From Cornus controversa (lineage: Eukaryota > Streptophyta > Magnoliopsida > Cornales > Cornaceae): a DNA stretch of 64,000 nt. Made by a program: the position numbers and the translations under genes. Below, piece by piece: positions 75 to 51,880 of this stretch. How positions within the stretch are numbered: position 1 is the stretch's first letter; each line of letters begins with the position of its first letter. Below the pieces are notes generated by a model. That model was not told where the DNA came from, searched no databases, and worked only from the letters and a program-made list of their open reading frames with translations. Location of the stretch: contig CM048846.1 of NCBI GenBank assembly GCA_026545225.1, positions 54,614,270-54,678,269 on the forward strand. The letters run 5' to 3'.

Positions 75-389
75 TGTCAGGCTCCAAAATTTGGACTACC
101 GGGAATCTCGATTGTGAACCTGTCCGTTAACTCCAACAAACCATTTACCCACCACTCATATACCGTGGAAGCTTACTTTTCAATTGTACACATATGTACG
201 TGCACTGCAGACCTTACAAACCCTAATGGACCCCTCAAACATTCCCTTGCATCTCTCTACAAGAATCCAGAATCCATATACTTTGATGCATCGAAATAGT
301 GATTTCGATCCATCGAAAGTTCGATGGATTAAAATGATGATTATGATGCATCTTGAGTTTGATGCATCTCACAAGGATCGATCATGTAT
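75..389 (-). mobile_element. LTR of Tekay-like family D, part 1 (U5 end)
   Basis: Starts with TGTCAGGCTCC, which aligns with the TGTCACGCCCC terminus of the LTR of element A, so 75 is read as the U5 end of a minus-oriented LTR. It is interrupted after 389 by element A and resumes at 19572. The 5-bp target duplication TGTAT is at 385-389 and again at 19567-19571. The LTR totals about 2.68 kb once the insertion is removed. It is the 3' LTR of a minus-strand element whose pol fragment starts at 21936. Positions 281-376 hold the first half of a GATGCATCGAAA word cluster. Confidence 0.75.
281..376. repeat. Dyad word cluster of family D, left half
   Basis: Several degenerate copies of a GATGCATCGAAA / TTTCGATCCATCGAAA type word lie within about 95 bp, in both polarities. 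The cluster continues beyond the element A insertion at 19626-19715, where a perfect 14-bp palindrome TTCGATGCATCGAA is found. In LTR orientation the cluster lies about 200-460 nt from the U5 end. Confidence 0.7.
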
Positions 390-654
390 TGTCACGCCCT
401 GAAATTCGGACCGCCAGGACTCCCCCGGACCGACCCGAATCCCAGGTGTGAACCCGTTCATTTAAACCCCAATGAACCTCCTCATGTTTCCCAATTATCG
501 CGGAAGCCAATCATACGCATGTAATTCCCTATGCGTACACTCATCATAATCCATCCCAATGAGCCCCACATCGATCCATGCATCCATGGCATTCCATTTC
601 CACTCTTAAATCATGGAAAATTATAAAATTCTACATTTTTAAGGTTTCTGAGAC

Positions 655-846
655 TTTGAGGCACCTCAAACTTGAGTTTGAGTCGCCTGGAACTTCCAGA
701 AGGGTCGAAACCACTTAAAAAGCACTTTGAGGCACCTCAAACTCCACTTTGAGGCATCTCAAAGATTTCTAGGCGCCTCAAAGTGGACTTTGAGCCGCCT
801 CAAACTTTTCTAGGCGCCTCAAAGTGGACTTTGAGCCACCACAAAC
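655..846. repeat. TTTGAGGCGCCTCAAA word cluster, left LTR of A
   Basis: At least six copies of a word built from TTTGAGG and CCTCAAA half-sites occur here, spaced irregularly at about 20-35 bp. Some are full palindromes in the other LTR copy; others are mixed (TTTCTAGGCGCCTCAAA, TTTGAGCCGCCTCAAA). Here the core reads GGCACC where the right LTR has GGCGCC (first and second full copies), as expected from CpG transition. In element orientation it lies about 265-456 nt from the U5 end and the PBS. Confidence 0.85.
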
Positions 847-2807
847 TGCACCAGGTCTGAAATTTTGACACCACTCCTCAACCTGACTTCAGATGCTAAT
901 ATCTCATAATCCGTAACTCTGTTTGACTTGAAATTTGGTATGGATCATCCTCAACATGTCTAATTTCTAACTCAATTTGAATCATCCAAAAATACCAACC
1001 AGAACTCAAGTTATACTCAAATTAGTGGGTGTGTGTCAGATTTCCAACCCTTGCACCAAAACATGCATATCTTTCTCAATATAAATCGAAATAAGGCCCA
1101 TGACCTATCAAAATGAAGCTAACAAAATTATCTTTTCATATGCATATATCTCATTTGCTCCTTAAACTCAAAATGGACACTTTTGGGCATGTGTCCCCCC
1201 AATGGCTACTTTAATGCCTCAATGGCCATCAAGAATATTCACATAACATGCATGTCACATTCGAAATGTACTTCCATCTATTTTTCTCATCATCTTCACT
1301 CAACAACTCATGCATACATACTTTTCATGCTCCATTTACTCATGATTAACCATACAAGAAATCATAACTAAAGAGGTAAATAGTTCTATGGTGCCATACA
1401 TCTCCCACACATACACTTGTCTCAAAAGGTACATATCGGTAATATGATTTTCCAAGTTTATAGTCATTACAAGAATTCACGCATAAGGTTCAAAATGCAA
1501 CCAATTCTACCATGACTACAACTAGTTCATTACCGTGCCACAAGCCGGCACGGATAGCCTAATATACAAAACTAACAAGAAAAGGAGTTCTAAGACTCCG
1601 AGTCTAAATCATGAATGCTCAGTATCTGTCACTTCCTTGCCATGTCCTGAAAATGTTAATGTAGGGGGATGAGCAAATTCAACGGCTCAAGGTAATATGT
1701 TGTGCAATCCACTCAAGTCTACATTTTATAAAATTGCATAAAGGAATTATCAATGCACAATTTAGCTACGTGTCATGCTTCCTAGCATTCTAGTCAAAGC
1801 AATACGTTCATTTTCATGGCATACTCATCAAATACATTTGACAACCATAATTTCACAACATACCTCATTTCACAATCCATCATATCTACAACATATAATA
1901 CATACGAATTTATCAACAAATCCACTCACTTCACATAAGTCACGTCACTTCACATAGTTCAACACAAAAATCACATTGTACTCAGAATTGAACTCACACG
2001 CACACCACACACATGATATGTACCGTAGTCCCATATCTTAATAATTTTGCTATTTCGGGCTACTAACCCGTCTGGTCTCCACCCACTTGCGCAAGGTAGA
2101 GGACTTTCAACCCCAAGAGGATCCCTTCCTCTATAATTTTCTATGAGTCATTCCCGAGTATTCATCACAAACATAAAATATTTCACATCTTGCACGTACA
2201 TTCGCACATTAGGATGCATTGCACTCAATACATGCCCTATGTCCATTCTAGCATGTCAAACAATAATTCACAATGCCACAAGCATACTTTCAATTCCCAA
2301 ACTCATGCTTTTCAATAAATTCACCAAAGATTCCATAAATGCAATATATATGATCAATTTGCATAATTAAGCAATTCATGCATTCAATGACATCTACCAA
2401 CCATTTCTAATCTAAAAGACACACCTCATCAATTAAATCCAACAATAAATCCACAAAACCTCATTTTATCATATATAACACAATTACATCAATTTTATGC
2501 TAAAAATATGAAACTAAACTTGAAATGTAAGACACAACACACACCCCCTACCTCAATAGCTATAGTTTCAAGCTATTCCTTACTTCACTTGAGAAAATTT
2601 ACTTTCTTAAAAATTTGTTCCAGGCGGATCAAATTCAAGCTTTCGTCGCGTAGATCATTTCTTCCTTCTTCGACGAACTCAAAATCCCACCCGAAGTCCC
2701 TCTAAATTGATGAAGAAGAGAAGGAGGAGAAGTTGTTATGTTTGTGTATACATATATGATGTTCACCGCTGAGGGAAGAAGAGAATAGGGCTAGGTTCTC
2801 TCCTCTT

Positions 2808-2817
2808 CTATTTATAG
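2808..2817 (-). promoter_or_regulatory. TATA box of element A LTR (left copy)
   Basis: Minus-strand CTATAAATAG, followed downstream in element orientation by a CT-rich leader typical of plant transcripts. The same site in the right LTR is at 19178-19187. It lies about 380 nt into the LTR, matching the position of the TATA-like sites in families B and C. Confidence 0.65.
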
Positions 2818-3195
2818 AAAAAGGACATAACCATAATTACAACAATGCCATTACTTTTTCACTAAACCTTCCCGGGCTCATTTTTGGAGTTTCGTAACTC
2901 CGATTGACACGAAATCGATTCCGTAGCACGTCAAATATTTTATTTAAGCTACCCTCCGAATTTGAAGTCATTTTGAGACTTTTTGATTTTTTGGGCCCAC
3001 GGGGCCCGCACCCACGGGTTGACCGGACCCGAAAAAGTCAACCTTGCCAAACATTCCAAAAATTTCCCCAAACCTTAGATATGTTATCCAAACATGTATT
3101 TCACATTTAAAACACATATATAATCACTTAAAACATCAATATGACCATAAATGAAATTATACAAAAATCGGCCAAAAGTGGTCACGGTTCTTACA

Positions 3196-6195: not shown

Positions 6196-6200
6196 GAGTG

Positions 6201-9294: not shown

Positions 9295-9494
9295 TGTCAC
9301 GCCCCAAAATTTGGACCACCAGGACTCCCCCGGACCGACCCGAATCCTAGGTGTGAACCCGTTCATTTAAACCCCAATGAACCTCCTCATGTTTCCCAAT
9401 TATCGCGGAAGCCAATCATACGCATGTAATTCCCTATGCATACACTCATCATAATCCATCCCAATGAGCCCCACATCGATCCATGCATCCATGG
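9295..9494 (-). repeat. 5' LTR of element A, part 1
   Basis: Starts TGTCACGCCCC and follows the left LTR closely up to CCATGG at 9494, where element E is inserted. The target duplication CATGG occupies 9490-9494 and 16954-16958. The rest of the LTR is 16959-19566. Confidence 0.93.
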
Positions 9495-10929: not shown

Positions 10930-10941
10930 CACCCCCAAACT
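10930..10941 (-). other. Polypurine tract of element E
   Basis: On the minus strand this reads AGTTTGGGGGTG directly before the LTR start TGATCGG. Three further tracts with the core AAGTTTGGGGG lie upstream in element orientation (12203-12215, 12342-12355 and 12622-12636). Confidence 0.8.
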
Positions 10942-12944
10942 TACATATTGCTAGTTCCTTAGCAATAGAATAAAATAAAACTAAAACAAAAGAAACTACT
11001 AAATACTAACTAAACTACCCAACTCCACTTTCGTGGGAGAAACGATTGCATTTAGCATATGCAACAAGCCTTTAAACCCCTAGGTTCCCCCTAGTGGACG
11101 AGTATAGTCTCGTGAGGGTTTCCAGAAATGTTACCCACAAACATTCAAAATTCTGTTCCAACATTAATTCAAGAAGAAGATTACAATACATAGTTACAAA
11201 CTTGCATTCAAGAATAATTTCAAACTTTCAAATTCTATAATTCAAATCAATGGTTCACATGCATAATTCACATCAACATATCTCAAAATAACCAACTCTA
11301 GTTCCCTCGTGTAAAGTGAACTAGCAATCATCTCATGTGACATAACTTAGCTCTGAATATATTAAGGCACATACCCCTTCAACTCACTAGCTCCCCTTAT
11401 TGAAATCATACTTCCCAACATGCATACATGACTTTTTCAATTTTTTTTTCATCATTCCTTTTTTTTTCATTGCTTCATTGGTTGTGCAATGTCTTAATTT
11501 ATTAAGCTTTCTGAAAGATCCATGTAGCAAGCTTTCAGTCAGTGACTCCCAAACCAGATGGCTTTAGGGCACTAGACTTTAAGATACCCTGAAGACCTAA
11601 TTACTCGAATCAGTCAGGCTACAAATCAAGACAACTAATGCTTATCTTTTCTCACCCTTTCACTTTTGACACGAACACTCCGTGCTTCCTGAGGCATAGA
11701 GGCCCGGTTACTCATGAAAAGGATCAAATTGATTCGCTTATTCATCACTTTTTTTTTTCTTTTTCATCTCTTTTTTTTTTTCATTGAATTCAAGTAAAAC
11801 ACATTATCGGTACTCATTCTCAAGAGATACTAATTAATATCAAGCATATGTAACTCAATAACTCAAAACCACAGTTTATACCCCATAAGACTATGCTAGT
11901 GTGTCTGTGCATGTAAGGAAACTAAAATTAATCATTCCAAAATATGTTATTGCAAACCATGATTAAAACCACATAATTTAAACCACAGTTCCAAAAATTT
12001 AAAACATACTCAAAAATTGCAAGTTAGGCACCTACATAAGGCACTAATCCCTTGAATGATGTCAAAACATTCTATCTAAAAATAAAACAAAAGAAAATAA
12101 AAAACAAACTAACAAAATAAAATAAATAAAAATCCTAAAACAAGAAGAATTTCATTTAAATTTCCCCCATATTGCAATAAAGCACAAAAATAAGCATCGC
12201 CTCACCCCCAAACTTAAACTGTACATTGTCCTCAATGTACACCCAATCAAAGCATAGAGAAGGGTAAGAACGATGTTACCATGATCATGGAGTAGTAGTG
12301 AGAAAATATAGCAATCCAATAGCATGAAGGCAATGCAAGCACACCCCCAAACTTGAATGTAACAACCTGTCAAAACAAACCACTATACCCCAAAGACCAA
12401 GTGAAATAATATGGGTGAAAATAAAAATGAAATAATTTTTTTTTTTTTTACTGAAGAAAGAAAGAAAGAAAAAAAACAAAATGAAAAATAAAATAAAGAA
12501 GAAAAAAAAATATAAAAAAAATAAAAATACAAAAGATAGTTACCTCTGAAAAAAAATCAAGGAGAAGGTGGTGTCGGAACGTCTAAGTCAACCGAGTAGT
12601 CCACAATCAATGCGAAATGTCCTCCCCCAAACTTGTATTTCAAAACCCCTTAAAGAAATCCAACCAATTTTACAAAAATAAACCACACCTTCTTTGAAGA
12701 AGAAACTTGAGAAAGTTGGAGCTTCATTGAGAATTTGAAATAAGCAAGTTGGATTTAATGTTGATGATGATGATCATGGACACTCTTCAATCAATGTAAT
12801 CACCAAGTAGAAATTTGAGAATGTTGGTTGATGTAGGAGAGTCAAGAGAGACCCAAAGCATGCAATTTTCGAGTGCGAGCATGTAGGTTGTGAAGAGGGA
12901 GCGAAATAGCACAAAATCAGAGCAGCTGGGCCTAGATGGGCAGG
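10942..12944 (-). other. AT-rich untranslated 3' region of element E
   Basis: Two kilobases without a credible gene. It contains A-rich and T-rich low-complexity tracts (around 11440-11470, 11750-11785 and 12420-12530) and three internal copies of the AAGTTTGGGGG polypurine motif. An 8-bp inverted repeat (GTACATTG-TCCT-CAATGTAC) lies at 12221-12240. Short frames such as 12152-12373 look like chance. Confidence 0.6.
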
Positions 12945-12945
12945 G

Positions 12946-13140
12946 GCGATCGATCCCCCATGGGCTGGGCGATCGATCGCCCAGCTGTTGTTGATGATCT
13001 TTTAAAAATTCAAGGGGTGATCGATCCCCCTTGGGCTGGGCGATCGATCGCCCCAGCTGATGCTCCTTGGGCGTCTATCGTCCAAGGTCGACCGAGAGTG
13101 CAATTTTTGGAGGGTCCATCGCCCAAGGTCGACCGAGATC
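12946..13140. repeat. GGGCGATCGATCGCCC palindrome cluster of family E
   Basis: Four GATCGATC-centred copies plus degenerate ones. 12964-12985 is a perfect 22-bp palindrome whose core is GGGCGATCGATCGCCC. The same 16-bp core recurs at 13038-13053. Imperfect versions with GATCGATCCCCC lie at about 12945 and 13018, and weaker variants (GTCTATCGTCCAAGGTCGAC type) run to 13140. The cluster is strikingly GC-rich against its AT-rich surroundings and follows gag in element orientation. Confidence 0.85.
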
Positions 13141-13259
13141 TTGTTTTTTAACCCGTCTTGAGTCCAAATACCTCGATACACCTCCTGATATCCCTCGGAA
13201 GCAACTAAGACATCAAAGACTCAAGAAAAATACATTAAACGCAACTAATAATGGAAGAA

Positions 13260-13350: not shown

Positions 13351-13433
13351 CTAAAGAAATTAAAGGATAGAAATACATACAAATCCTACAATTTAACGTC
13401 CGCAGGCGACGGTCATCGACTTCAATTGAAAGT

Positions 13434-16953: not shown

Positions 16954-16958
16954 CATGG

Positions 16959-19566: not shown

Positions 19567-19625
19567 TGTATTGACCAAAACACACTCTCGGGACTTTTGA
19601 CATCCCAAAAATCTTACAGGTTTTT

Positions 19626-19715
19626 TGATGCATCAATACTTTCATTTCGATGCATCGAAGGATCGATGCATTGACATACATTTCGATACATCGAAATGTC
19701 CGGACTGATGCACCT
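19626..19715. repeat. Dyad word cluster of family D, right half
   Basis: Continues the cluster at 281-376. It contains a perfect 14-bp palindrome TTCGATGCATCGAA at 19646-19659, and degenerate copies TTTTGATGCATCAA, GATCGATGCATTGA and TTTCGATACATCGAAA. Element A inserted within this cluster. Confidence 0.8.
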
Positions 19716-36553: not shown

Positions 36554-39513
36554 TGTAGAGACCGTGCCCAATTTTGGCCAATTTTTCAAATTTTATCATT
36601 TATTACTTTAGACGCATTTTAAATGATATTTAACATGTTTTGGATGCGGGGAACATGTTTAGAAGGTTGGAATATAGTTTTGGGAAGTTTTGGGGACTTT
36701 TGAAAAAGTTTGACTTTTTGGTCAATGGGGGCCCGGGATTAGGTTAAGTGAGTTCGAGAATTTCGTGAAAATTCTAGAAAATTTTATTTTTGACTATGGA
36801 CTAAACGAAATGTTAAGAGTGTTAAGGAAGTGATTTCAAGTCCAACGGAGTTTTCGGGAATTAATTCCGAGCTCGGGAAGGTACATTAACTAGCCGGGGG
36901 TAAAATGGTTATTTCGTGCCCCTAGGGTTGAGATAAATATCTGAGAAGTCAGAGATTTTCATTTTTACGGATCTCTCTCTCTCTCTCTCTAAAGCTACCA
37001 CTTCATTTCTTTCCCTTCTCTCTAGAGTTTGAGGGCCTTAAGGAGTGATTTGGAAGATTTTGAAGAAGGAAAGTGTCTAGGGGACATCAAGGGCATCGGT
37101 TTAAACCGATCAAAGTCTCCGTTTCGTGAAATTGAGAAAGCTGAAATTTCTCAAAGTTGGATTCAAAGCATAGGATTTGAGGTAGGGGTGCTGGACTTAC
37201 CTTTACTTTGATTCTATAGGTCACATAATTGTGACATGAAAGATAGATTGTGATTTCTTGAGTTTAGGGTTTTGTGTATATGTATATATGTATGAAAATA
37301 TGATTTATGCACGTGGATATGTCTAGCATGTTAGTTAGTTCTTATGTATATTGTGTATGTGCAAATTAGACTATGAATGTTCTTGATGAAAAATGTGTTC
37401 ATTTGGTGAAAATATAAAAAATGTGAGTTTTTATAGACTTGTGCATGAAAGATATGATTTTTCTTATGAAATGCATAAGCATGATGATTTTCATGATATG
37501 AGTGTGATGACATTGTGACAATCTTGAGGTGAAAGAAAAATGCATTGATTTGACAAAAAATGCATTCATGGTGTGGAATAAGTGCATTGATGTGATTATG
37601 TGCACTATATGAAAAACGAGTTTTTGGGGTGTGACAACATTGAGAATTAAGGTAAGGGAATGGTCCCTAGGGTGAAAGACCCAAAACTTGGCCAAGAGGA
37701 GGCGCTCCCTTCGGGTTAGCAACCCGATAAAGCGTAAGCAGAGTTTGGGTGCCGAAGAGACCCTTACTATGGATGGTGTGATAAGCTAGTCCCCATTGAA
37801 GTGATTTTTGGATTTATGTGGCATGAGTTATATATATATATATTGTGGCTTGCTCAATTTGATATATATATATATACATATGTATGCAAATGCATTGAGA
37901 TGTGAAGCATCACTCATGATTTGAAAAACGTGATTGTTTATGAGTTAAAAACATGTGTACTTGTCATGTAGACATGTAGTAATTTCATATGCATTCATGC
38001 ATGGCTGCCTGAGTTAGAGTGGGGTTGAGTGGATCATTCCTACTGAGCCGCAGTGTTGCTCACCCCCTACTTATATAAACTTTTTCAAATAAGGCGCCGA
38101 TGGAGGATGAAGCATGATTAGCTCAATGAACCTTGTTGGGTTCTTTTTGTTTTGGATTCTTAATCTTTCGGGATGTAGCTAAATGTCCATGCCGGCTTGT
38201 GGTATGTTGACCATAGTTGTAGTGTTGCCTTTACATTTGTATCTTCTTTTGTTTATGAACTCCAAATGTAAATGCCACAGTTGTAGGAAGGAGACTTTTG
38301 AGAAATACATGTATAATGGCTTCCTTTATTTGAGACTTGATGAATGTATGCATCTTGATAGAAATGTATGAGGATGGTGTGATCGTGGTAATTCAAATGT
38401 GTGATTTGGAGTATATGTGTGATGATATGTCATGTATAGATGATTTTAATGTTGAGGGAATGGTTCTAGGTTATTAGAATGAGATTTGGACCTAAAATGG
38501 ACAAAATGTGAGGTTGCAAGAAATTCTGCAAAGTGCAATTTCGATTATGCGAAATGGCAATTTTGCACAATCGAAATTTCCTATTGTGCCCAAACTTTAA
38601 ACGGGCATAACTCGTTCGTTTTAGATCGGAATTGAGCGTGGTTTTTTTTTTTTGTTTTGAAATTGAGTATTTTTGGATTCTCTATCCAATGGTATTGGTT
38701 TCAGATTCAAATTCCAATCATACTAGGAATTGAGTCCCGGGAGTGAGTGATTTCCATGTGTAGCAAGTTGGTAACCCTTGAGAAATGTGCTAATGTAAGC
38801 ATTTGGACTTCATGAATGGTGTTATATCATTCCTTTGATGTTTGAGAGGTTGTATGGATGAATGTGAATGATTCTAGACAATTAGAGTGAGAGTTGGGAT
38901 AAAAAAGACTAAGTTGTGAAATAGCAGAAATTCTCAACAGAGAGAATTTCGATCGTGCGAAATGACCATTTCGCATGATCGAAATTTCGATTGTGCGAAA
39001 TGACTATTTCGTACAATCGAGAAAATGCAGGCTTTTGAGGATGAAAAGTCCAGAGAGGGTTGATACTTCGATACTACTTCGCAAGCATCTCGATTGTGCG
39101 AAGTACTTTGATCGTGCGAAAGTTAGGTTTCGCACAATCGAAATTTCGATTGTGCAAAATGCACTTTTCGATTGATCGAAAAGTTGCAGGTCTGGATTGT
39201 AAGGAATATGCAGATGTGGCTTGAAACGGGGCCCGTTGAGCTTGGTTGAGATTGAGTAGTGTGCATTCATATGCAACAATTGAGTTGAGTTTCCGCAATA
39301 AATGAGTGTAATGAGGGTTCATTGGGTTTAATGGATAGTCAGCCTTCGGTCTTCCGGGAGTGAGAAAATGGGGCGTTATGGCATGGTATCAGAAATGGAT
39401 ACTATCGCATGAGCGTGCTTGAGATAGTTCATGGAGTTGGGTGAACGGGTTCACACCCGGGATTCGGGGTTGGTCCAGGGGAGTCTCGGTGGTCTGGATT
39501 CCGGGGCGTGACA
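36554..39513 (+). repeat. 3' LTR of element B
   Basis: 2960 bp, nearly collinear with the 5' LTR. TATA-like GATAAATATC at 36932-36941. It ends GGGGCGTGACA, followed by the AGTAT duplication. Confidence 0.93.
38945..39185. repeat. TTTCGATTGTGCGAAAT hairpin cluster, 3' LTR of B
   Basis: Best-preserved copy. 38945-38963 (AATTTCGATCGTGCGAAAT) is an inverted match of 38968-38986 with one mismatch and a 4-nt loop GACC. A second hairpin follows at once with loop GACT, and further inverted word pairs run to 39185. A smaller pair lies at 38539-38575. On RNA these would form a row of short hairpins. Confidence 0.85.
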
Positions 39514-40189
39514 AGTATACATATATACACATATATATAACTCTAGGCTCAAGAAATAAAATCTATCTTTCATGTCACATAAAAGTGACCTATAAGACCA
39601 AAGTAAAGATGAGTCTATCACCCTTTCCTCGAATCCTAGGCTTTGAATCCAACTTTGAGAAATCCCAGCTTTCTCAACTTCACAAAACAAAGACTTTGAT
39701 CGGTTCAAACCGATGCCCTTGGTGTCCCCTACACACTTCCCTTATTCGGGAATGTCCAAATCATAAGCTAACTAGTCCGAAATCTAGAGAGAAGGGGGAG
39801 AGATGAAGTGGGAGAGGTAGAGAGAGAAGGAGATCTATAAATATGAAATATCCAAACCTAATTGATATTTATATCACTCCTAGGGGCGCAAAAAGACTGT
39901 TTTGCCTCTGGACCACTTAACGTACCTTGCCGACATATGTTTTTTATTTTGAAAATTCCGTTGGTCTCGAAATCACTCCCTTAACACTCTAAATATTTCG
40001 TTTAGTTCATATCCAAAAAATAAATTTTACCAATTTTTTTTGAAATTTTTGGACTCACTTAACCATACTCCAACCTTCTAAACATGTTCTCCGCATTCAA
40101 ACACATGTTAAATATCATTTAAAATGCATTTATAGCAATACATGATGAAAAAAATCAAAATCGACCAAAATTTGGGCACGGTCTCTACA
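39514..40189 (-). mobile_element. Solo LTR of family B, part 2
   Basis: Resumes after the AGTAT duplication as reverse-complement LTR B sequence, including the antisense of the CT-rich leader and the LTR start, and ends GTCTCTACA at 40189. The outer CAAAA duplication is at 40190-40194. Confidence 0.88.
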
Positions 40190-40915: not shown

Positions 40916-42325
40916 TGTTACCCAAGAATTGACCCTAGAGGGGGGGTGAATAGGGTCAATGGCAATCAATGACAATTTTTCACAAATATAAATATCAAGA
41001 ACAAATCAAAATAAAGGTACTAGTGAAATGAGGGAAAATAGATGCACAAGAATTAAAAGAGAGAGTTAGAGAGAATCAAACACAAGTGACGCAAGATGTA
41101 GCGTGGTTCGGAATCCCCTACTCCACGACTCAAGATCCCTCTTGAGATTTCCCCAAATCCACTAAGGCTTCTCCTTTCGGGTGGAGAGCAAACCTTTACA
41201 ATGAAGCTAACAAGCTTCTTCCTTTCTCTTGCTAAGTGAAGTCCTCCACTTAGTCTTCTTGGGTTCAACCAACCCTTTACAATAAATGAGGAGAAGATTT
41301 ACAGCACAAAGAATATATCTCTCAAAGATAGAATCTCAAAATGAAGCTCACAAGACTAGTAGTTATATATGAATCTCAAGTTGAAGCTCAAGTCTAATAA
41401 ATGAGAATGATAGAGTATTGAATGTAATGAATTTTGCTCAGCAAAAATAGCTCAAGAGTGTTAGATGAAGAAATAAATGCAGAGCCATCAATATATATAG
41501 AGCCCCTTTGAGTTATAGCTGTTGGAAGGTAGTTGAGAGCATTAAATGCACTAAACTATCCGTTGGATTTGAATTCAGTATGTTTGAGGCGACTCAAAAT
41601 GAGTTTCAGGCGCCTCATAAACTTTGAGGTGGCTCAAAGTGCATTTTGAGGTGGCTCAAAGTGCAGTTTGAGGCGCCTCAAAATATTTTGAGGTGGCTCG
41701 AAATGAGTTTGAGGTGGCTCGAAATTAGTTTGAGGTGGCTCAAAGTGAGTTTGAGGTGGCTCGAAATGAGTTTGAGGCGCCTCAAAAAGTCTTCTCAAAA
41801 CTTCAATTTCTTTCTGTAACTTTGAGGTGGCTCAAACTGAGTTTGAGGCGCCTCAAAGTCCTCTAACCTTTAAAAAATCAAATTTCAAAGACAAGGTTAG
41901 GACATTGAGCTTGTTTGGTCTTAGAAAATCATTGAATTAATATCAAGACCTATTTCAAGAGAATTAGAGACCAATAAATGATATAAAAATGAATGCATGG
42001 TCCTATCATAGAATTGAGCTTCAATCATGTTATTCATAAATAACTTTGACAATGAAGTCCTAGCTCTCACCAACTTATTTCTACCCCATTTCTTCAAAAA
42101 TGGCCTTTGTCATTAAATCTTGGGGCAACACCTTCTTCTTCAATGGAATGCTTTCTTTGACATTATCCTCTTCATGACATCATCCTTAATGTGAATGCTT
42201 TCTTGAATAAACATCATTGCTTTAAAATCAATCACTCAAATTGGGAATTAGTACAAAACATCATTAATGATTTGTTATCATCAAAATTACAAGATTGCCC
42301 TTAGGTTAAAACCTTTGGGTCAACA
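40916..42325 (-). repeat. 3' LTR of element F
   Basis: 1410 bp. In element orientation it starts TGTTGACCC. The word cluster (41582-41870) lies upstream of the TATA box (about 41490-41500), and near the U5 end a TTGACCCTA/TAGGGTCAA stem with a poly-G loop lies at 40930-40965. Confidence 0.95.
41582..41870. repeat. TTTGAGG-GCCTCAAA word cluster, 3' LTR of F
   Basis: About a dozen copies in 290 bp. Perfect 16-bp TTTGAGGCGCCTCAAA palindromes lie at 41667-41682, 41771-41786 and 41842-41857. The others are TTTGAGGTGGCTCAAA/GAAA variants, in which the left half is kept and the right half altered. It lies just upstream of the LTR TATA box in element orientation. The same cluster is at 50354-50632 in the other LTR. 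Confidence 0.9.
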
Positions 42326-43087
42326 ATCTCCCCCTTTTTGATGATGACAAAACATTGATGTGTTCTAGGTAAATGTGGAGTAGCATTTTAAGATGCTCCC
42401 CCTATCAATATGCACGCTTTGAACACAATATCTAGGATATAAATAAATCAGCACTTTCTTTAAAAAATTTCATCTCATGAAAAGTGCAATATGAGTTCAT
42501 AGAGAATGCTTTGAAAATGATATTTAAGATAAGCATGTTACTCTCCCCCTATCAATATGCTCTCATTTAAAAGCATCACATAATTGTAAAGTTGCATATG
42601 TGTAAGCATTATAAGTGCACAACTCAACCAATAGTCAATCAATCAACCAATAATTCACCAAGTAAATCCCATCCTCCTTCATGCATAGAAAATCACAAGT
42701 TTCAAAGTTTCATCATTGAATTCTCATAGCATTCATAATGCAATACATGTATACATTAATCATTATACCATCATCATTGAAATCACAAGCATAGTCATAA
42801 AATGATCAAGATATAGCAAGTCAAGATATAATCAAAAAAGTTGGCAATTCATTCATCATAAAGGAAATTTGCATTTAGGCATAGATAATATATAAAAAAA
42901 AATCCAAAGCCCCAAAAGCCATACATATGCAAATATCCCATCATATCCAAGATAATAAAATCCTACTACATTGCCATTGCCATCCAACTACTACTACCCT
43001 AGAACATCCCAAAACATCCTAGAAAATCCCAAAACACCAAAATACTTCTCCCCCTTTGTCTTCATCAAAAAGGGTGAGATGCCATCA
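42326..43087 (-). other. Region between ORF3 and 3' LTR of F with multiple polypurine tracts
   Basis: No credible coding. On the minus strand, AAAAAGGGGGAGAT at 42326-42339 is the PPT at the LTR. Further GGGGGAG tracts lie at 42396-42412 and 42543-42560, which share the same 17-base CATATTGATAGGGGGAG context, and at 43047-43060. Repeated PPTs before the 3' LTR are a described Sirevirus trait. Confidence 0.75.
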
Positions 43088-44326
43088 TCAAGGATCATGA
43101 GGAGCGGGAGGAGTCTGGGGTTGAGTTCGGATAGCTGTGATATCATCCTGAATAGCAAGCAGCTGCATCCCCGTAAGTTCTACCTCTTCCTCATATCTAA
43201 GTTGGAAATGGTCAAAATCAGCTCTCAAGGTATCGACCTTTTCTTCGGTGAGTCGAGCAATTGTGATATGTTCGTCGAATCGAGAAATGAGTTGACGCAT
43301 AAGAGAGGCATTGTCATCCATGGGTGCCGGAGCATCCTCATTCAAATGGACATGTCCTCCTCCTTCTTCATCATTAGAAGCGTCATGTTCCTCATTAGCT
43401 TCAGCAGGTGCAAAATTTTCTCTCCTTGGATCATACCAGTACCCATCAGCATTCTGTTGGAGTTTCATGAGCAAGAGAGTGGTCCTATTTAGTCTTTCTC
43501 TATTACCAACTTCTCGAGATTGCTCACTTGATAGAGTCACCCTATGGGATTGAAAAATCTTGGTCAGAGGTAAGGCATAGTAGCACTGAGTGGCTGAGGA
43601 TCGAGTCTCTAGCATATGGTGATAGATAATGTGAGAGAGGTCTAGGCGCTTTTTGTTAAGCAAACACCAAATAATGAATGCTTCCATGCAAGTGACTTCA
43701 GTGCGACTACCTGATTTGGGCAAAATGAGATATCCAATAACATTATGAAGAATTCGAGCCTCCAAGGTCAATTGGGATGCAAAGATGTGACTTATGTTTT
43801 GGATATTGGGGTTATCACACATTTGTCGGATAGCTTCAAGAGGTTCGAATCCTTGAACATGAGCCCAAGAATGAGTGGAGAAAAACTGAAAATCCCCTTC
43901 ATCAATTTCAAGAATGGTTCTCAGCCTCTCTTTAGTGATTGTGATGGAAATGCCATTTGCAAAAGAGGTTAATTCATGACAGTTGTCTTCTTCCCTCAAA
44001 TGTGCATAAAAGATTCGCACTAATTTGGGGTACAGACGTTCCTCCATAGAGACAAAATGACCCCATCCAATATCATCAAAAAATTTGAAGGTGTTCAAAT
44101 GATTTTCTTCACAAAAAATTCTAGAAACAACCTTACCTCTAGCCACTTCCTTGTCGAGAAATTCTGTGTCATAGATCTTCTTGAATTCTGGAGATTCAAA
44201 TAGACGAAAGGTTGGAGCAGCCATGGGTGGAGGTGTGGGATTTGAAGATTCCCCTTCATGGCGAGCCTTGGTACGCCTCTCTGCATTAGGGTTTTTGGTT
44301 CTCTTACCAAAGATACGAGGAGGCAT
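43088..44326 (-). CDS. ORF3 of element F, plant-transposon-protein-like
   Basis: An intact 412-residue frame, same strand as gag and pol, in the position where some Sireviruses carry an envelope-like gene. The N-terminus is basic and low-complexity (MPPRIFGKRTKNPNAERRTK). Residues about 45-270 form a folded domain with FFDDIGWGHFVSMEERLYPK, LVRIFYAHLREED, ITITKERLRTILEIDEGDF, LTLEARILHNVIGYLILPKS and MEAFIIWCLLNKKRLDLSHI. From memory this resembles the plant-specific 'putative plant transposon protein' family. An acidic linker and a C-terminal coiled-coil-like stretch (about 335-400) follow. I see no signal peptide or convincing transmembrane segment, which argues against a classical envelope protein. 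Function unknown. Confidence 0.8.
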   Translation of the reverse strand: MPPRIFGKRTKNPNAERRTKARHEGESSNPTPPPMAAPTFRLFESPEFKKIYDTEFLDKEVARGKVVSRIFCEENHLNTFKFFDDIGWGHFVSMEERLYPKLVRIFYAHLREEDNCHELTSFANGISITITKERLRTILEIDEGDFQFFSTHSWAHVQGFEPLEAIRQMCDNPNIQNISHIFASQLTLEARILHNVIGYLILPKSGSRTEVTCMEAFIIWCLLNKKRLDLSHIIYHHMLETRSSATQCYYALPLTKIFQSHRVTLSSEQSREVGNRERLNRTTLLLMKLQQNADGYWYDPRRENFAPAEANEEHDASNDEEGGGHVHLNEDAPAPMDDNASLMRQLISRFDEHITIARLTEEKVDTLRADFDHFQLRYEEEVELTGMQLLAIQDDITAIRTQPQTPPAPHDP

Positions 44327-44510
44327 GATTCAAGGGTTTGGGATAGATGGGAGTGTGAGAGAAAGAAAATGGAAAAGAAATGAGGAGGAAAAACCAAGAG
44401 AATGAAGAAGAAAAGTGAAGAGAATGAGAGACCCAAACAGAGGTTGCGCCTGTTGAGAGAGAGGGATACGCGAAATGAGGGTTTCAGGCTCTCTTTTAAA
44501 TGGAACGACA
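44327..44510 (-). promoter_or_regulatory. Promoter-like leader of ORF3
   Basis: In minus orientation, just after the word cluster comes ATTTAAAAGAG (about 44493-44503), then about 165 nt of CT-rich sequence resembling a plant 5' UTR, then the ORF3 ATG with no intervening upstream ATG that I noticed. The order (word cluster, TATA-like box, CT-rich leader, ATG) resembles that of the LTR promoter. A separate transcript for ORF3 is an inference. Confidence 0.4.
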
Positions 44511-44718
44511 CTTTGAGGCGTCTCAAACTTGACTTTGAGGCGTCTCAAAATTTCCAGGCGCCTCAAAGTTGGGTTTCAGGTGCCTCAAAGACCTCTTTAG
44601 ATAGTCATAAAACATTCTGTAACTTCCAGGCACCTCAAAGTTGATTTCCAGGCGCCTCAAACTTGCTGGGATGACTTTGAGGCATCTCAAAGTGGATTTC
44701 CAGGCGCCTCAAAGTGGC
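44511..44718. repeat. TTTGAGGCGCC word cluster between pol and ORF3 of F
   Basis: At least nine word copies in about 210 bp, in forms such as CTTTGAGGCGTCTCAAA, TTTCCAGGCGCCTCAAAG and CTTTGAGGCATCTCAAAG. It starts exactly at the end of pol: the TGA stop (44709-44711) is part of a TTTGAGGCGCC word. The CCAGGCGCCTCAAAG variants match the cluster of gypsy element A better than the LTR clusters of F itself. Confidence 0.85.
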
Positions 44719-47700
44719 TGAGAATGTGTTTCAATCAAGGAACAGGTCAAGAACACTTCATTCTCCTTTGCCATGCCAATCTCTCTCCTAATGGTGCAAA
44801 ATCTATCTTCTTGGAGAGGTTTTGTGAATATATCTGCGAGTTGTTTCTCTGTGTTAACAAAGATGAGCTCAATGTCTCCTTTAGACACATGATCTCTCAA
44901 GAAGTGGTGCCTAATCTCAATATGTTTAGTCCTAGAGTGCTGAATGGGATTTTTGGAAAGACATATCGCACTCGTATTGTCACATCTAATAGGTATGTGA
45001 TCAAATGTAAGTCCAAAATCCTCAAGTTGTTGTTTAATATAGAGAGTTTGTGCACAACAACTACCGGCGGCCACATATTCGGCTTCCGCCGTTGACAAAG
45101 CAACCGAATTTTGTTTCTTACTTGACCATGAAACTAATGAGTGTCCTAGGAAGTGACAAGTGCCACTTGTGCTTTTTCTATCTAATTTACATCCGGCAAA
45201 GTCAGCATCCGAATAACTTATGAGATCAAAAGATGTATCCCTAGGAAACCAAAGTCCCAAGTCAATAGTACCACTCAAATATTTGAAAATTCGTTTAACG
45301 GCACTTAAATGGGATTCTTTGGGACATGATTGAAATCTTGCACATAAGCAAACACTAAACATTATATCCGGTCTACTTGCCGTTAAATACAAAAGACTTC
45401 CAATCATTCCTCTATATTTCTTGATGTCAACATTTTTTCCTTTTTCGTCCTTATCAAGTTTAGAGGAATTGCTCATAGGAGTTTTTGCATGTTTGGCGTC
45501 CTCCAAGCCAAATTTCTTTAGCAAATCTTTAACATATTTGGATTGGCAAATGAATATACCATCCAATGATTGTTTGATTTGCAATCCTAGAAAGAAGTTA
45601 AGTTCACCCATCATGCTCATTTCAAATTCATTTTGCATGTTTGAAGCAAATTCTTTACATAACTTCTCATTTGTTGATCCAAAGATGATATCATCAACAT
45701 AAATTTGAACAATCAACAAATTTTTATCAATGATTTTTGTAAAAAGGGTATTGTCGATTTTTCCTCTAACAAAATCATTTTCTAGAAGAAAACCACTCAA
45801 CCTCTCATACCAAGCTCTAGGAGCTTGTTTCAAACCATACAAAGCTTTAGATAATTTAAAAACATGGTTTGGAAGGTCATGACTTTGAAAACCCGGTGGT
45901 TGTTCTACATAGACTTCTTCTTCTATGAAGCCATTCAAGAAAGCACTTTTTACATCCATTTGAAATAGCTTGAAGTTCTTATGAGATGCATATGCAAGTA
46001 ACATCCTAATTGCTTCTAATCTAGCAACGGGTGCGAAGGTTTCCTCATAATCAATCCCTTCTTCTTGGTTGAAACCTTGGGCAACTAATCTAGCCTTATT
46101 TCTAATTATAACACCCGACTCATCCTTTTTATTTCTATAGACCCATTTGGTTCCTATGACGGTTTGATCTTTGGGTCTAGGAACTAAATTCCAAACTTGG
46201 TTTCTCTCAAATTGGTTTAGCTCTTCTTGCATAGCTAAAATCCATGACTCATCATTTTCGGCCTCAAAGATGTTCTTTGGCTCTAATTGAGATACAAAGG
46301 CTAAATGATCACACATGTCTCTAAGAGAGGACCTAGTGCTAACACCTTTTGAAGGATCGCCTATAACTTGGTCAAGTGGATGATAAGGAATGACTCTTTG
46401 ACCTTTTGGAAGAGAATCATGAATGTCATTTTGAGTGTTGTCCTCATTAGAAGCATTTTCTTGTGACTCATCAATGGTGGATTCTTTTGGTTTTTCAACA
46501 AGTGAAAGTCCATCAACATTCTTTTCAAGCTCAACTACCTCATCATCCAATTCTTGCCTAGGGGTAGGTAAAGGAGATTCATCAAAAACAACATGTATAG
46601 ATTCTTCTACCACCAAGGTTCTCTTGTTGAACACTCTATAGGCTTTGCTTTTGGATGAGTATCCTAGGAAAACACCTTCATCGGATTTAGCATCAAATTT
46701 TCCTAAGTTGTCCTTGTCATTCAACACAAAACATTTGCACCCAAAGACTTTGAAGTATCCTATATTTGGCTTATGACCATTCCAAAGCTCATAGGGGGTC
46801 TTATCAAGTTTCTTTCTAATGATGACTCTATTTAAAACATAGCAAGATGTGCTAACGGCTTCGGCCCAAAAGTATCTAGGCAACTTATGTTCATTGAGCA
46901 TTGTTCTAGCCATCTCTTGGAGGGATCTATTTTTCCTCTCAACGACCCCATTTTGTTGAGGAGTTCTTGGAGCGGAGAAGTTATGATCATAACCGTTTTC
47001 ATCACAAAATTTCTCAATATCTCGGTTATCAAATTCTCTACCTCTATCACTTCTAATGCTCTTAATCTTGCATTCTTTCTCATTTTGAACTTTTCTACAA
47101 AACTTAGAAAAAATAACATGAGTCTCATTCTTATGAGCAAGGAAGAATACCCAAGTAAGCCTAGTGAAATCATCTACAATAACAAAGGCATAAAATTTTC
47201 CTCCTAAGCTAGCAATTCTATCCGGACCGAAGAGGTCCATATGGAGTAATTCTAAAGGTCTTGAAGTAGTGATATCCTTCTTCCTTTTGAAGGAAGACTT
47301 GATTTGTTTGCCTAATTGGCAAGCACCACAAGTTTTATCCTTGGCAAACTTAGTCTTTGGGAGGCCTTTGACTAAGTCCTTTTTGGACAATTTTGAGATC
47401 AAGTCCATGCTAGCGTGTCCTAATCTTCTATGCCATAACCAACTATTGTCACTAGAGGAGATAAAGCATTTGACATTTTGATCAAGCAAGTCACATAAAA
47501 GGATGGTGTACAAATTGTCATTTCTATGTGCAACGAAAATTTGACGACCATCTTTTTCAATAATGCAATGATCGGATCTAAATGCAACATTAAAGCCTTT
47601 ATCACATAGTTGACTAATGCTAAACAAGTTATGCTTTAAACCATTAACAAGAAACACATTATCAATAGATAAGGAAGAAGATATACCTATGGTCCCGACG

Positions 47701-47858
47701 CCAACAATTTTACCTTTAGAGTTGTCTCCAAATGTGACGTTTCCTCCATCATAAGGCTTGAGAGAAGAAAATTTGGAGCGATCTCCCGTCATGTGCCTTG
47801 AGCAACCACTATCAAGAAACCACTTGTCCTTGGAGCTAGATGAGGATTTTAAGCATAC
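44709..47858 (-). CDS. Pol of element F: protease, integrase, RT, RNase H
   Basis: An open frame from just after a stop at 47859-47861 to TGA 44709-44711; the first ATG is 47792, inside the protease. Protease: [15 protein letters not shown] with the DSG active site, upstream of that ATG. GAG-pre-integrase: [17 protein letters not shown]. Integrase: D in [11 protein letters not shown] in IRSDRGREF and E in [52 protein letters not shown] and [12 protein letters not shown] with YVDD. RNase [58 protein letters not shown] and [12 protein letters not shown]. All catalytic motifs are present and there is no internal stop. It is in a different frame from gag, so it probably needs frameshifting or readthrough. 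Confidence 0.95.
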
Positions 47859-47871
47859 CTACAAGACAAGC

Positions 47872-49635
47872 TTAAGTGACTTCTTTTGGTACCCAAACCA
47901 TTTTGGGTCCAATTGGGTTAGCAATCATAGGGAATGTTCCTTTTGGAACCCAAACCATTTTTGTCAACTTTCTTTTTCTAAAAGGACAAGAGAATATTTT
48001 ATGTCCACTTTTTCTACAAAGATTGCATATAGAATTGAAGAAGTTGAATTGAGAGCTCTTGACAAAGAAGTGCTTCAAGGGCTTTAGCTTATCACTTTTA
48101 GAAGGAGGTTTTTTGATCAAAGATTTTTGTTTATCAAATGGATTATACCCAATTCCTTCTTTGTCATAAACATCCCGTTGTCTTCCAAGGAGAATAGTTA
48201 AGTTCTTTCTCCCCTTGGTGAATTTTGCAAGAATCTCAATTTGATCCTCAACAACTTTCTTCAAGTTTTCATTTTCAATTTGAAGATCATTTGAAGAAGT
48301 TTCTTTTGAAAGGATCTCTTTCTCTTTCTTGAAAGAGTCATTTTCCATTTGAACTTTTGAAAGTTCAAGTGAAGAAGAGTCTTTCTCCTTTCTCAATAAA
48401 ACATTTTCATTTTGAATTTTAGAAAGTTCTTGTGAAAGAGATGAGATTTTTTGTTTGAGAGAAGAGTTTTTCAAAATCACTTTTTCAAGTTCTTTATGCA
48501 AATCTTCAAAAGCATCTTGCAATTCATCATAGGAATAAGAAGACTCAATTGAAAGCTCAAGATTAGAATCTACCTCATCCTCGATTGCCATAAGGCAAAG
48601 GTTGGCAATTTCGTCATTATCACAATCCGAGTCGCTTGAGTCCGAATCATCCCAAGTAGCCTTCATTGCCCTTTTCTTTTGCTTATTTTCTTTATCTCTT
48701 TTGTACTTGGGACAATCGGCTTTGAAATGTCCCGGCTTTCCACATTGAAAGCAAGTAGGTGATTCCTTTTTGCTTGATTCACCTTTGAACTCATTTCTCT
48801 TGAAAGGTCTCTTCTTGAAGAGATGTTCTTTCCTCATGAATTTTTTGAACTTGTTAGAGATGAGAGCAAGTTCATCTTCTTCATCACTAACATCTTTATC
48901 ATCTTCCTCATTGACCTCTTGAATTGAAGTCTTTAAAGCCATGCTCTTCTTTTGCTCGGGCTTTTCTTGACGGCTTTTCATCTTGATTTCATGAGTCATG
49001 AGAGATCCCATAAGGTCTTCAAGACTTAATGAATCGAGATCTTTTGCTTCCGAGATAGCGGTAGCCTTTGCATCCCAACTTGTGGGTAGGCACCAAAGAA
49101 TTTTCTCCACATTGTCGGACGTAGAGTAATTCCTACCAAGATGAGATAAACTATTAATAATGTTAGTGAATCTAGTAAACATCTCACCAATAGTTTCATT
49201 CGGTTCCATCTTAAAGAGCTCATACTCACGAATCAACATGCTCACTTTGGTGGCTCTAACTTGCTTAGTGCCTTCATAGGTTACTTCAAGTTTATCCCAA
49301 ATTTCTTTGGCAGATTTACAAGCCGAAATTCTATTGAATTCGGATTTACTTAAAGCACAATACAAATTTGTAACCGCTTTGGCATTGACTTGAACAAGTT
49401 TTCGGTCATTGTCATTATATTCATGCAAGTCTTTTGGAACTCTTAGACCTTCTAAGGTTTTCATGGGAACTAAGGGTCCGTCACGAACAACTTCCCAAAC
49501 TTGGTAGTCAATAGATTGAAGAAACCAAATCATTCTTGGTTTCCAATAGCTATAGTCGATTCCATCAAACCAAGGTGGCCTATTGTTGGATTGACCTTCT
49601 ACATGAGATGCACCTTGCATGTTTGCCATGATCAA
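47872..49635 (-). CDS. Gag of element F
   Basis: 587 residues, intact; MANMQGASHV two codons inside is an alternative start. The N-terminus PPWFDGIDYSYWKPRMIWFL is the copia gag entry motif (DUF4219-like). The UBN2-type gag core follows (EIWDKLEVTYEGTKQVRATK, SMLIREYELFKMEPNETIGE, LPTSWDAKATAISEAKDLDS). A CCHC knuckle (CFQCGKPGHFKADC) lies near residue 300, then acidic and coiled-coil segments (LHKELEKVILKNSSLKQKIS), and a second knuckle-like CNLCRKSGHKIFSCP near the C-terminus. Gag forms the particle and packages RNA. It stops with TAA at 47872-47874, just upstream of the pol frame. Confidence 0.94.
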   Translation of the reverse strand: MIMANMQGASHVEGQSNNRPPWFDGIDYSYWKPRMIWFLQSIDYQVWEVVRDGPLVPMKTLEGLRVPKDLHEYNDNDRKLVQVNAKAVTNLYCALSKSEFNRISACKSAKEIWDKLEVTYEGTKQVRATKVSMLIREYELFKMEPNETIGEMFTRFTNIINSLSHLGRNYSTSDNVEKILWCLPTSWDAKATAISEAKDLDSLSLEDLMGSLMTHEIKMKSRQEKPEQKKSMALKTSIQEVNEEDDKDVSDEEDELALISNKFKKFMRKEHLFKKRPFKRNEFKGESSKKESPTCFQCGKPGHFKADCPKYKRDKENKQKKRAMKATWDDSDSSDSDCDNDEIANLCLMAIEDEVDSNLELSIESSYSYDELQDAFEDLHKELEKVILKNSSLKQKISSLSQELSKIQNENVLLRKEKDSSSLELSKVQMENDSFKKEKEILSKETSSNDLQIENENLKKVVEDQIEILAKFTKGRKNLTILLGRQRDVYDKEGIGYNPFDKQKSLIKKPPSKSDKLKPLKHFFVKSSQFNFFNSICNLCRKSGHKIFSCPFRKRKLTKMVWVPKGTFPMIANPIGPKMVWVPKEVT

Positions 49636-49670
49636 ACTCTAAGACGATTAAGTCCTATTCAAGAGTCCAA

Positions 49671-49682
49671 GCTCTGATACCA
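49671..49682 (-). other. Primer-binding site of element F (initiator Met tRNA type)
   Basis: Minus-strand TGGTATCAGAGC, two bases from the LTR boundary at 49685. It confirms minus-strand transcription. Confidence 0.95.
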
Positions 49683-49684
49683 AT

Positions 49685-51098
49685 TGTTACCCAAGAATTG
49701 ACCCTAGAGGGGGGGGGGGTGAATAGGGTCAATGGCAATCAATGACAATTTTTCACAAATATAAATATCAAGAACAAATCAAAATAAAGGTACTAGTGAA
49801 ATGAGGGAAAATAGATGCACAAGAATTAAAAGAGAGAGTTAGAGAGAATCAAACACAAGTGACGCAAGATGTAGCGTGGTTCGGAATCCCCTACTCCACG
49901 ACTCAAGATCCCTCTTGAGATTTCCCCAAATCCACTAAGGCTTCTCCTTTCGGGTGGAGAGCAAACCTTTACAATGAAGCTAACAAGCTTCTTCCTTTCT
50001 CTTGCTAAGTGAAGTCCTCCACTTAGTCTTCTTGGGTTCAACCAACCCTTTACAATAAATGAGGAGAAGATTTACAGCACAAAGAATATATCTCTCAAAG
50101 ATAGAATCTCAAAATGAAGCTCACAAGACTAGTAGTTATATATGAATCTCAAGTTGAAGTTCAAGTCTAATAAATGAGAATGATAGAGTATTGAATGTAA
50201 TGAATTTTGCTCAGCAAAAATAGCTCAAGAGTGTTAGATGAAGAAATAAATGCAGAGCCATCAATATATATAGAGCCCCTTTGAGTTATAGCTGTTGGAA
50301 GGTAGTTGAGAGCATTAAATGCACTAAACTATCCGTTGGATTTGAATTCAGTATGTTTGAGGCGACTCAAAATGAGTTTCAGGCGTCTCATAAACTTTGA
50401 GGTGGCTCAAAGTGCATTTTGAGGTGACTCAAAGTGCAGTTTGAGGCGCCTCAAAATATTTTGAGGTGGCTCGAAATGAGTTTGAGGTGGCTCGAAATTA
50501 GTTTGAGGTGGCTCAAAGTGAGTTTGAGGTGGCTCGAAATGAGTTTGAGGCGCCTCAAAAAGTCTTCTCAAAACTTCAATTTCTTTCTGTAACTTTGAGG
50601 TGGCTCAAACTGAGTTTGAGGCGCCTCAAAGTCCTCTAACCTTTAAAAAATCAAATTTCAAAGACAAGGTTAGGACATTGAGCTTGTTTGGTCTTAGAAA
50701 ATCATTGAATTAATATCAAGACCTATTTCAAGAGAATTAGAGACCAATAAATGATATAAAAATGAATGCATGGTCCTATCATAGAATTGAGCTTCAATCA
50801 TGTTATTCATAAATAACTTTGACAATGAAGTCCTAGCTCTCACCAACTTATTTCTACCCCATTTCTTCAAAAATGGCCTTTGTCATTAAATCTTGGGGCA
50901 ACACCTTCTTCTTCAATGGAATGCTTTCTTTGACATTATCCTCTTCATGACATCATCCTTAATGTGAATGCTTTCTTGAATAAACATCATTGCTTCAAAA
51001 TCAATCACTCAAATTGGGAATTAGTACAAAACATCATTAATGATTTGTTATCATCAAAATTACAAGATTGCCCTTAGGTTAAAACCTTTGGGTCAACA
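49685..51098 (-). repeat. 5' LTR of element F
   Basis: 1414 bp. The TATA box (minus TATATATA) lies at about 50263-50272, about 80 bp downstream in element orientation of the word cluster 50354-50632. Differences from the 3' LTR seen by eye are four transitions and a longer poly-G tract near 49710. Confidence 0.95.
50354..50632. repeat. TTTGAGG-GCCTCAAA word cluster, 5' LTR of F
   Basis: Counterpart of 41582-41870, with two single transitions within the words (GGCGCC to GGCGTC, GGTGGC to GGTGAC). In this LTR the cluster sits in U3, directly upstream of the TATA box that would drive the element. Confidence 0.9.
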
Positions 51099-51103
51099 TT
51101 ATG

Positions 51104-51880
51104 AACTCCATTATGTATGACCTTGTGGAAATTAAATGAATGATAGACTTTCGAGCTTCCTAATGTATGAAATTGTGAGAATGAATGTTGGAGATTGGTT
51201 TTGTATATATTTATCATGCTATGCTCTTTATAGATCATTTGTGGATGTTTTGGTTTCAAGGATAATGTATGTTAGGAGTAGAATTATGAAATTTATGGAC
51301 TTTGCACCTATGAGCCTCAAATGTATGGATTTGTGTAGTTTTTTTTTTTTATCATGTTTAAGATTGCAAATGAGTGTATGATCATAGAGATTGCATATAG
51401 ACTTGTGACAATCAGGTTTTGAGGCATTTTTAGACTTTCGGTCGCCTAGTCTCTACAGCAACCGGCCGAAACTGTGAGATCTTGAAGTTTTGCAAATGGG
51501 GTACCTATTTCAGATGATTGAAGGAAGGTTTCAGCTGACCAAAAGCTCTATTTCGACCTACCGAAGCTACCCTTTAGCCAACCGACATAATTGGAACCCT
51601 GAAGTTCAGCTGAAGCTAAGTTTCAGCCGACTGAAGGAGGTTCTAGCTGATAAAAACCTGGACATAATTAAAATTCTTCAAACTTTAGAATTTGAGCGAG
51701 TATGTATAGACGCATAGATCAGTGTGAGACCCATTGTGATGGGTATTGATGAGTATATGCCAATGTAATGGCATACGTATAGAAAGCTTCCGCAAATTGT
51801 AGGAGTGTTGATGTTTGATAATCTCCATTCACCTCCGTTTTCCTTATTCTTAATCGGGAGTCGAAAATCGGGACGTGACA
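51104..51880 (+). mobile_element. 3' LTR of family C, part 3 (U5 end)
   Basis: Resumes after the TTATG duplication and ends GGGACGTGACA at 51880, matching the GGGGCGTGACA end of LTR B. The bases after it (CCCCA) do not match those before LTR D (TAGAA), as expected if the two outer halves come from different insertions. Confidence 0.83.
51440..51665. repeat. Dyad word cluster of family C
   Basis: Degenerate words of a TTTCAGCCGACTGAAGG / TTCAGCTGAAGC / TTTCGACCTACCGAAG type in about 225 bp, with TTTC...GAAG ends. More decayed than the clusters of A, B or F. It lies about 215-440 nt from the U5 end. Confidence 0.6.

Follow-up and report, generated by a model that had tools for sequence, protein, structure and literature searches.

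Arrays of dyad words in nested LTR retrotransposons of Cornus controversa: candidate DNA sites with conserved slots and changing cores

We analysed a single window, the whole stretch of 64,000 nt of Cornus controversa taken from assembly GCA_026545225.1 (contig CM048846.1, positions 54,614,270 to 54,678,269). Self-comparison, reading of the sequence and Pfam indicate plant DNA composed largely of nested long terminal repeat (LTR) retrotransposons, and the protein matches are mostly to plants. Four Tekay-like families, A to D (C and D each present as one copy), carry clusters of short words towards the U5 end of their LTRs. The clusters can be described as homotypic arrays of dyad sites of ~16 bp in non-coding retrotransposon DNA, and we see about an even chance that they act as cis-regulatory or identity arrays, with a dimeric factor as the likely ligand. 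Between B and D the slots of the array are kept while the cores of the words have changed, and the word of A recurs in a Copia element of the Sirevirus type. The label Tekay is our assumption: it combines the name given by the initial annotation, general features of the lineage and a chromodomain match below threshold.

The arrays were located as follows, with E standing for a gag-only element of Ty3 type.

655..845, minus strand: array in the 3' LTR of A, 8 words of the TTTGAGGCGCCTCAAA type, 265-455 nt from the U5 end at 390
17024..17214, minus strand: array in the 5' LTR of A, 8 words
281..391, minus strand: U5-proximal part of the D array, cut by A (word matching, slot alignment)
19564..19696, minus strand: remaining part of the D array (word matching, slot alignment)
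30661..30698, plus strand: outlying word pair in the 5' LTR of B (word matching)
31063..31297, plus strand: array in the 5' LTR of B (word matching)
38947..39181, plus strand: array in the 3' LTR of B, nine slots (word matching)
27218..27471, minus strand: array in an inverted, truncated B-like LTR, ~370-625 nt from its end (word matching)
51508..51656, plus strand: degenerate array in C (word matching)
12944..13124, minus strand: words of the GGGCGATCGATCGCCC type in E (word matching)
41583..41857, minus strand: array in the 3' LTR of the Sirevirus-type element, 12 words, upstream of the TATA box
50356..50630, minus strand: array in the 5' LTR of the same element, 12 words
44512..44713, minus strand: array of the same element between pol and an open reading frame (ORF) in env position, 8 words

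There are 8 words per array in A, 12 per LTR in B, 9 in D (with up to 5 mismatches) and 4-5 in C. In the 3' LTR of B they lie 332-566 nt from the LTR end, with the outlying pair at 937-974, those of D lie ~206-440 nt from the U5 end, and the matched words of C 224-372 nt from it, fuzzier ones reaching out to ~445. These measurements agree with the cluster distances first given for all four families. The LTRs had also been called homologous around the cluster, and an alignment of seven LTR ends indeed has a common block downstream of it. Each word consists of outer half-sites and a core. In 38 of the 68 spacings, a total that counts A and B with both of their LTRs, neighbouring words are 21 or 22 bp apart, or about two helical turns.

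The comparison of B and D is the most informative one. Both have nine slots, with word spacings of 22, 16, 22, 81, 18, 22, 16 and 22 in the 3' LTR of B and of 20, 16, 22, 94, 16, 22, 16 and 22 in D, where about 10 of the 94 derive from the target duplication by the insertion of A. Masking the words does not abolish the alignment of the spacers (score 19.5, for a null maximum of 12.0; 0/300). Over the aligned columns, identity is 93/132 in spacers and flanks, 63/90 in the arms and 22/54 in the six-base core, and it falls to 0.11 at each of core positions 8 and 9. No slot has the same core in B and D, with 2-4 of the six bases in agreement. Inside a family they resemble one another: the match to the family's own core consensus is 0.87 in B and 0.94 in D, and core identity across slots is 0.78 and 0.91, respectively. 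The B-D core identity in the same slot (0.41) equals the value for other slots and is close to the chance expectation of 0.36. When words are swapped between the two families slot by slot, the contrast seen here is attained by 2 of 512 arrangements, the lowest number this test can give. Hence, the claim that position is kept while sequence is replaced is borne out and sharpened for this pair. The words of B and D do not differ throughout: the outer arms, TTTCG...CGAAA, are common to both (12 exact matches, 0.02 expected), and it is mainly the core that differs.

Nine slots drifting independently of one another could hardly produce this pattern. A common selector that rewrites the words in place would yield it. 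Neutral minisatellite turnover is another explanation: a palindrome would be amplified by slippage, then homogenised or replaced, and the word would have no function. It agrees with the array of the Sirevirus-type LTR, which is a 21-bp tandem repeat with words in the same orientation, and with the rearranged array of the inverted B-like LTR. It accounts less well for B and D, whose slots and central spacer are kept while the cores change, for the similar spacing across families with unrelated words, and for the same LTR position of the A, B and D arrays. We regard neutral turnover as unlikely; the reason for giving it even that much weight is that, between B and D, homology of the spacers is established chiefly in the central one.

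The second line of evidence comes from outside the Tekay-like families. The word of A, TTTGAGNNNNCTCAAA, has 27 matches in the window (0.02 expected), which lie in both LTRs of A, in both LTRs of the Copia element at 40916-51098 and between the pol of that element and its ORF in env position. The word is thus shared across superfamilies, Ty3 (Tekay-like A) and Ty1 (Sirevirus type). The initial annotation had missed this occurrence in the Copia element. With it, and with words in E as well, the layout is not specific to Tekay-like elements. We also looked at spacers alone: the alignment of A with the Sirevirus-type LTR on the opposite strand scores 13.0, above all 300 shuffles. These two arrays may be related beyond their words, but A and B on the opposite strand also score high (11.5, 1/300) and 30 comparisons were made in all. 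The exact words searched are all missing from a second Copia element (53546-58449), which is bounded by 219-bp repeats; such words are therefore not general to all elements in the window.

The Copia element at 40916-51098 matches the published Sirevirus layout, as judged from its sequence. According to the part of Bousios et al. 2010 available to us (PMC2829016), Sireviruses carry palindromic repeated-motif (RM) boxes upstream of a TATA box in mid-LTR, and also upstream of env if present. Here, the TATA box is at LTR position 827 and the LTR array stops ~84 nt before it, while the array at 44512-44713 precedes the ORF in env position (Pfam PF20167, envelope identity putative). Several copies of the polypurine tract (PPT), AGGGGGAG, lie near the 3' LTR (42328, 42396, 42543 and 43048). 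At the 3' LTR junction, AGGGGGAGATTG, the last AGGGGGAG is followed by AT/TG, as in the Sirevirus PPT motif taken from the same excerpts (PMC2829016). The CGG-CCG core and the CpG island of Sireviruses are absent: the word is TTTGAGGCGCCTCAAA and the CpG ratio is 0.60 and 0.42. In those excerpts, Tnd-1 is listed as a Sirevirus bearing RM boxes without the CGG-CCG core (PMC2829016). The element fits the Sirevirus layout, and therefore one type of array in this window is of a known kind.

To assess the excess of dyads, we counted arms of at least 6 with a loop of at most 8 and at least 2 G/C per arm, using 10 dinucleotide shuffles as control for the whole window and 300 shuffles for each cluster. 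The window has 239 dyads, for 68-119 in the shuffles. Ten bins of 500 nt have at least 5 dyads, and all of them hold an array of A, B, D or the Copia LTR; the maximum in shuffled sequence is 3-5. By cluster, there are 9 dyads in the 3' array of A (0.64 expected), 9 in its 5' array (0.65), 6 in the 5' array of B (0.73), 10 in its 3' array (0.81), 3 in the outlying pair of the 5' LTR (0.18), 8 in the joined D array (0.83) and 13 in the 3' LTR array of the Sirevirus-type element (0.63), values reached in 0/300 shuffles each. The internal array before env has 4 (0.48, 1/300). Dyad counts are not significant in the inverted B-like LTR (1 vs 0.46) and in C (1 vs 0.45; 108/300 each), nor in E (2 vs 0.61, 40/300). 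Among eight control stretches, one (B, 29800-30050) has 2 dyads for 0.32 expected (10/300).

Predicted folding has z scores of -5.6 to -10.9 on both strands for all arrays but C, where they are not significant (-1.9 and -1.3). A 71-nt early piece of B has -4.3 and -3.6, and no control stretch is under -2.3. We also counted word matches against 200 shuffles, with consensus words picked post hoc. The inverted B-like LTR has 9 matches (0.63 expected, shuffle maximum 3), E has 5 (0.23, maximum 2), and C has 4 (0.17, maximum 2) and 5 (0.40, maximum 3), both values being modest support. Hence, the layout that the initial annotation ascribed to all four families stands for A, B and D, and is weak for C. 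The description of the words as palindromic does not suit B, whose words are self-complementary at a mean of 8.4-9.6 of 16 bases.

The same annotation suggested that selection acts on the self-complementarity of the RNA leader and not on a fixed protein site. Under that explanation, hairpins or palindromic loops would serve dimerisation or packaging, and the sequence would drift as long as pairing is kept. Several observations are in line with it: the strong predicted folding outside C, the position of the A and B arrays downstream of a TATA-like box, the alternating orientation of B words, which would yield stems between neighbours, and the yeast Ty3 element, which dimerises via a 5' palindrome according to the available part of PMC11381356. 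The A array lies ~2 kb downstream of a TATA-like TATAAATA at offset ~380; in B, GATAAATATC is at a comparable offset, seen by eye and absent from the pattern-search list.

Apart from the alternating word orientation in B, the pairing signature expected of RNA was not found. We compared G.U with A.C among arm mismatches in 72 words from the 5' array of A, the 3' LTR and pre-env arrays of the Sirevirus-type element, both LTRs of B (11 of 12 words each, one weak match being dropped), the inverted B-like LTR, D and C. There was no excess of G.U on the sense strand (31 G.U vs 35 A.C, p 0.71), nor among the 55 distinct words (27 vs 25), and the split is uneven by array, from 0 / 10 in the Sirevirus-type LTR to 5 / 2 in the inverted B-like LTR. 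No compensatory pair occurs among 17 distinct words of the TTTGAG set, for 2.3 in shuffles (two words present only in the 5' Sirevirus-type LTR are excluded). In 33 distinct words of B and D, 7 cells are altered on both sides for 16.8 in shuffles; this set has 6 of the 9 D words and leaves out weak B matches, and its mixed orientations and cores inflate the shuffled value. Picking words at up to 5 mismatches from the consensus also disfavours, to some extent, those with changes in both arms. Folding of the antisense strand is about as extreme as that of the sense strand, the word of A lies upstream of the TATA box in the Sirevirus-type element, and the core of the B word is mostly not self-complementary. 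We thus find selection on the RNA leader improbable. As there is no pairing signature and one type of array lies upstream of the TATA box, sites in double-stranded DNA are favoured.

Another possibility is that the arrays are a source of small RNA or a silencing target, i.e., that they are kept for some other reason and the host reads them as hairpins. Small-RNA hotspots on the palindromes of maize Sireviruses, described in the parts available of PMC10760457 and PMC5311732, would agree with it, as would the strong folding on both strands and the common spacing near 22 nt. On the other hand, the text accessible for PMC10760457 reports maize Ty3 elements without an obvious hairpin peak, and such a role leaves the concerted change of the cores unexplained. 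We attach a low probability to it.

Several points weigh against sites for a dimeric DNA-binding factor. The candidate factor would be a protein binding the words, and none is known here. Strict helical phasing would not give the spacings of 16, 18-19 and 49-50, and CpG is not enriched in the arrays of A or the Sirevirus-type element (ratio 0.42-0.60). The words of B alternate in orientation, so neighbours can form RNA stems, and complementarity between adjacent words is 12.4-13.4 of 16, vs 10.7-11.7 for other pairs. Because the copies have decayed since they inserted, the comparison of G.U with A.C is less sensitive. Concerning B and D, the masked alignment lies mainly in the long central spacer, slots 5 and 6 of D agree with the arms of B at just 4 of 10, and the last slot of B is already closer to the D type (core 4/6), which counts against full slot homology. 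Finally, recombinational replacement by another array might also explain the switch between them.

If the arrays are bound as double-stranded DNA by a dimeric factor, they could serve as cis-regulatory or identity arrays. A change of the factor, or of its specificity, might then cause all words of an array to change while the slots stay. The factor would probably be host-encoded, since Tekay-like B has no long sense frame beyond those of gag-pol type. By analogy, the arrays may work like the RM boxes of Sireviruses, but in elements of Ty3 type and, in A and B, at a site ~2 kb past the TATA-like box. A more specific version is a switchable code, with slots in an unchanging lattice, a single dyad word for each family, cores rewritten in place faster than spacers when the reader changes, and a code shared across superfamilies; this version is possible, and we propose it tentatively. 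The fast-evolving recognition code listed among the roles in the initial annotation thus fits best at the level of DNA, where it is still one candidate.

The LTRs and elements that hold the arrays are given below. A is located within a D LTR, and E interrupts the 5' LTR of A.

390..3195, minus strand: 3' LTR of Tekay-like A, 97.7% identical to the 5' LTR part over 2614 nt, ends read in the sequence
9295-9494 and 16956 to ~19563, minus strand: 5' LTR of A, split by E
26847 to ~28688, minus strand: third B-like LTR, inverted and truncated
28690..31629, plus strand: 5' LTR of B, 94% identical to the 3' LTR (self-comparison)
36554..39513, plus strand: 3' LTR of B (self-comparison)
U5 end at 51880: LTR of C, broken by the Copia element 40916-51098
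40916..51098, minus strand: Copia element of Sirevirus type inside C, with Copia gag and pol domains, LTRs 99.4% identical and four AGGGGGAG tracts

B has Pfam domains for Gag, protease, reverse transcriptase, RNase H, integrase zinc and SH3_Tf2-1; rve (0.0013) and Chromo (0.0045) are each short of the curated cut-off. Between its LTRs, the frames of at least 200 amino acids are of gag-pol type, except a 210-amino-acid antisense frame within gag. Among named proteins close to the B query, one from Tanacetum ranks first (67% over 40%), and Cornus florida has 64% over 98%. The Sirevirus-type pol matches Cornus florida at 79% over 43%, with three unnamed proteins scoring above. Protein-guided scans of viral, bacterial, archaeal and plasmid DNA collections returned 0 relatives and 1 distant one (38%).

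Some other features accompany these elements. A is inserted inside the word array of D, with CATGTATTG on both sides (383-391 and 19565-19573); palindromes are often targeted by LTR retrotransposons, according to the part available of PMC6911290. The D LTR also has a 48/96-bp tandem repeat at 20478-20706, unrelated to the word array. The internal region of A contains a solo LTR of E (6198-7635), which has ~95% identity with the LTRs of the E copy located at 9495-16955. The only Rfam match of the whole window at the gathering threshold is snoR71 (14743-14848), which lies on the plus strand and runs antisense to the gag frame of E; no match falls within any array. The U5 of B, at ~31486-31509 and 39370-39394, has text resembling its own LTR end and primer-binding site (GGGGCGTTATGGCATGGTATCAGA), which gives the impression that the end of an earlier LTR was taken up there. 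At 25762-28688, an LTR looks head-inverted, its start being in plus and the rest in minus with some overlap, and C looks head-inverted at 39514-40189, where its initial ~670 nt are reversed.

We did not find a Ty3 counterpart of RM boxes described in the literature searched. Six exact words of A, B and the Sirevirus-type element had no match in PMC (those of D, C and E were not searched), and no description of palindromic or tandem arrays in Tekay LTRs was found by title or abstract start, where one may still exist. The TTTGAGGCGCCTCAAA pattern occurs in 3 contigs of IMG/VR, by estimate about the number expected by chance.

In anatomy, the closest analogy is the Sirevirus RM box. The available part of PMC2829016 calls these boxes Sirevirus-specific and proposes a role in regulation; their motif varies between elements while the place is kept, and the figure of at least 8 motif copies per element is also reached by Tekay-like A, B and D (4-5 in C). 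RM boxes lie just upstream of the TATA box, whereas the arrays of A and B are ~2 kb downstream of a TATA-like one, and RM boxes have a CGG-CCG core, which the words of A, B and D lack. Sirevirus palindrome clusters likewise lie in LTRs and have hairpin potential (as cited in the parts available of PMC10760457 and PMC5311732), but were shown for Copia, the accessible text of Martin et al. 2023 (PMC10760457) giving no obvious hairpin peak for maize Ty3. The dimerisation palindromes of retroviruses and yeast Ty3 are also near the RNA 5' end, but are 6-nt sequences of which one is active, as described in the available part of PMC11381356, whereas here arrays of 16-mers lie ~2 kb into the leader. 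If our reading is true, palindromic RM arrays are a device of both Ty3 and Ty1 retrotransposons and no peculiarity of Sireviruses, and B and D show a whole set of sites rewritten in place. For such rewriting, the closest analogy would be the VANC arrays of VANDAL transposons. These are short tandem motifs in non-coding DNA that diverge jointly between related elements, and VANDAL encodes the binding protein VANC (both from the part available of PMC5735166), a gene of a kind not seen in Tekay-like B; the term "palindrom" is absent from the text of PMC5735166. Young families within a single genome would then allow a test of the coevolution of sites and reader, like that of VANC and its motifs in Arabidopsis.

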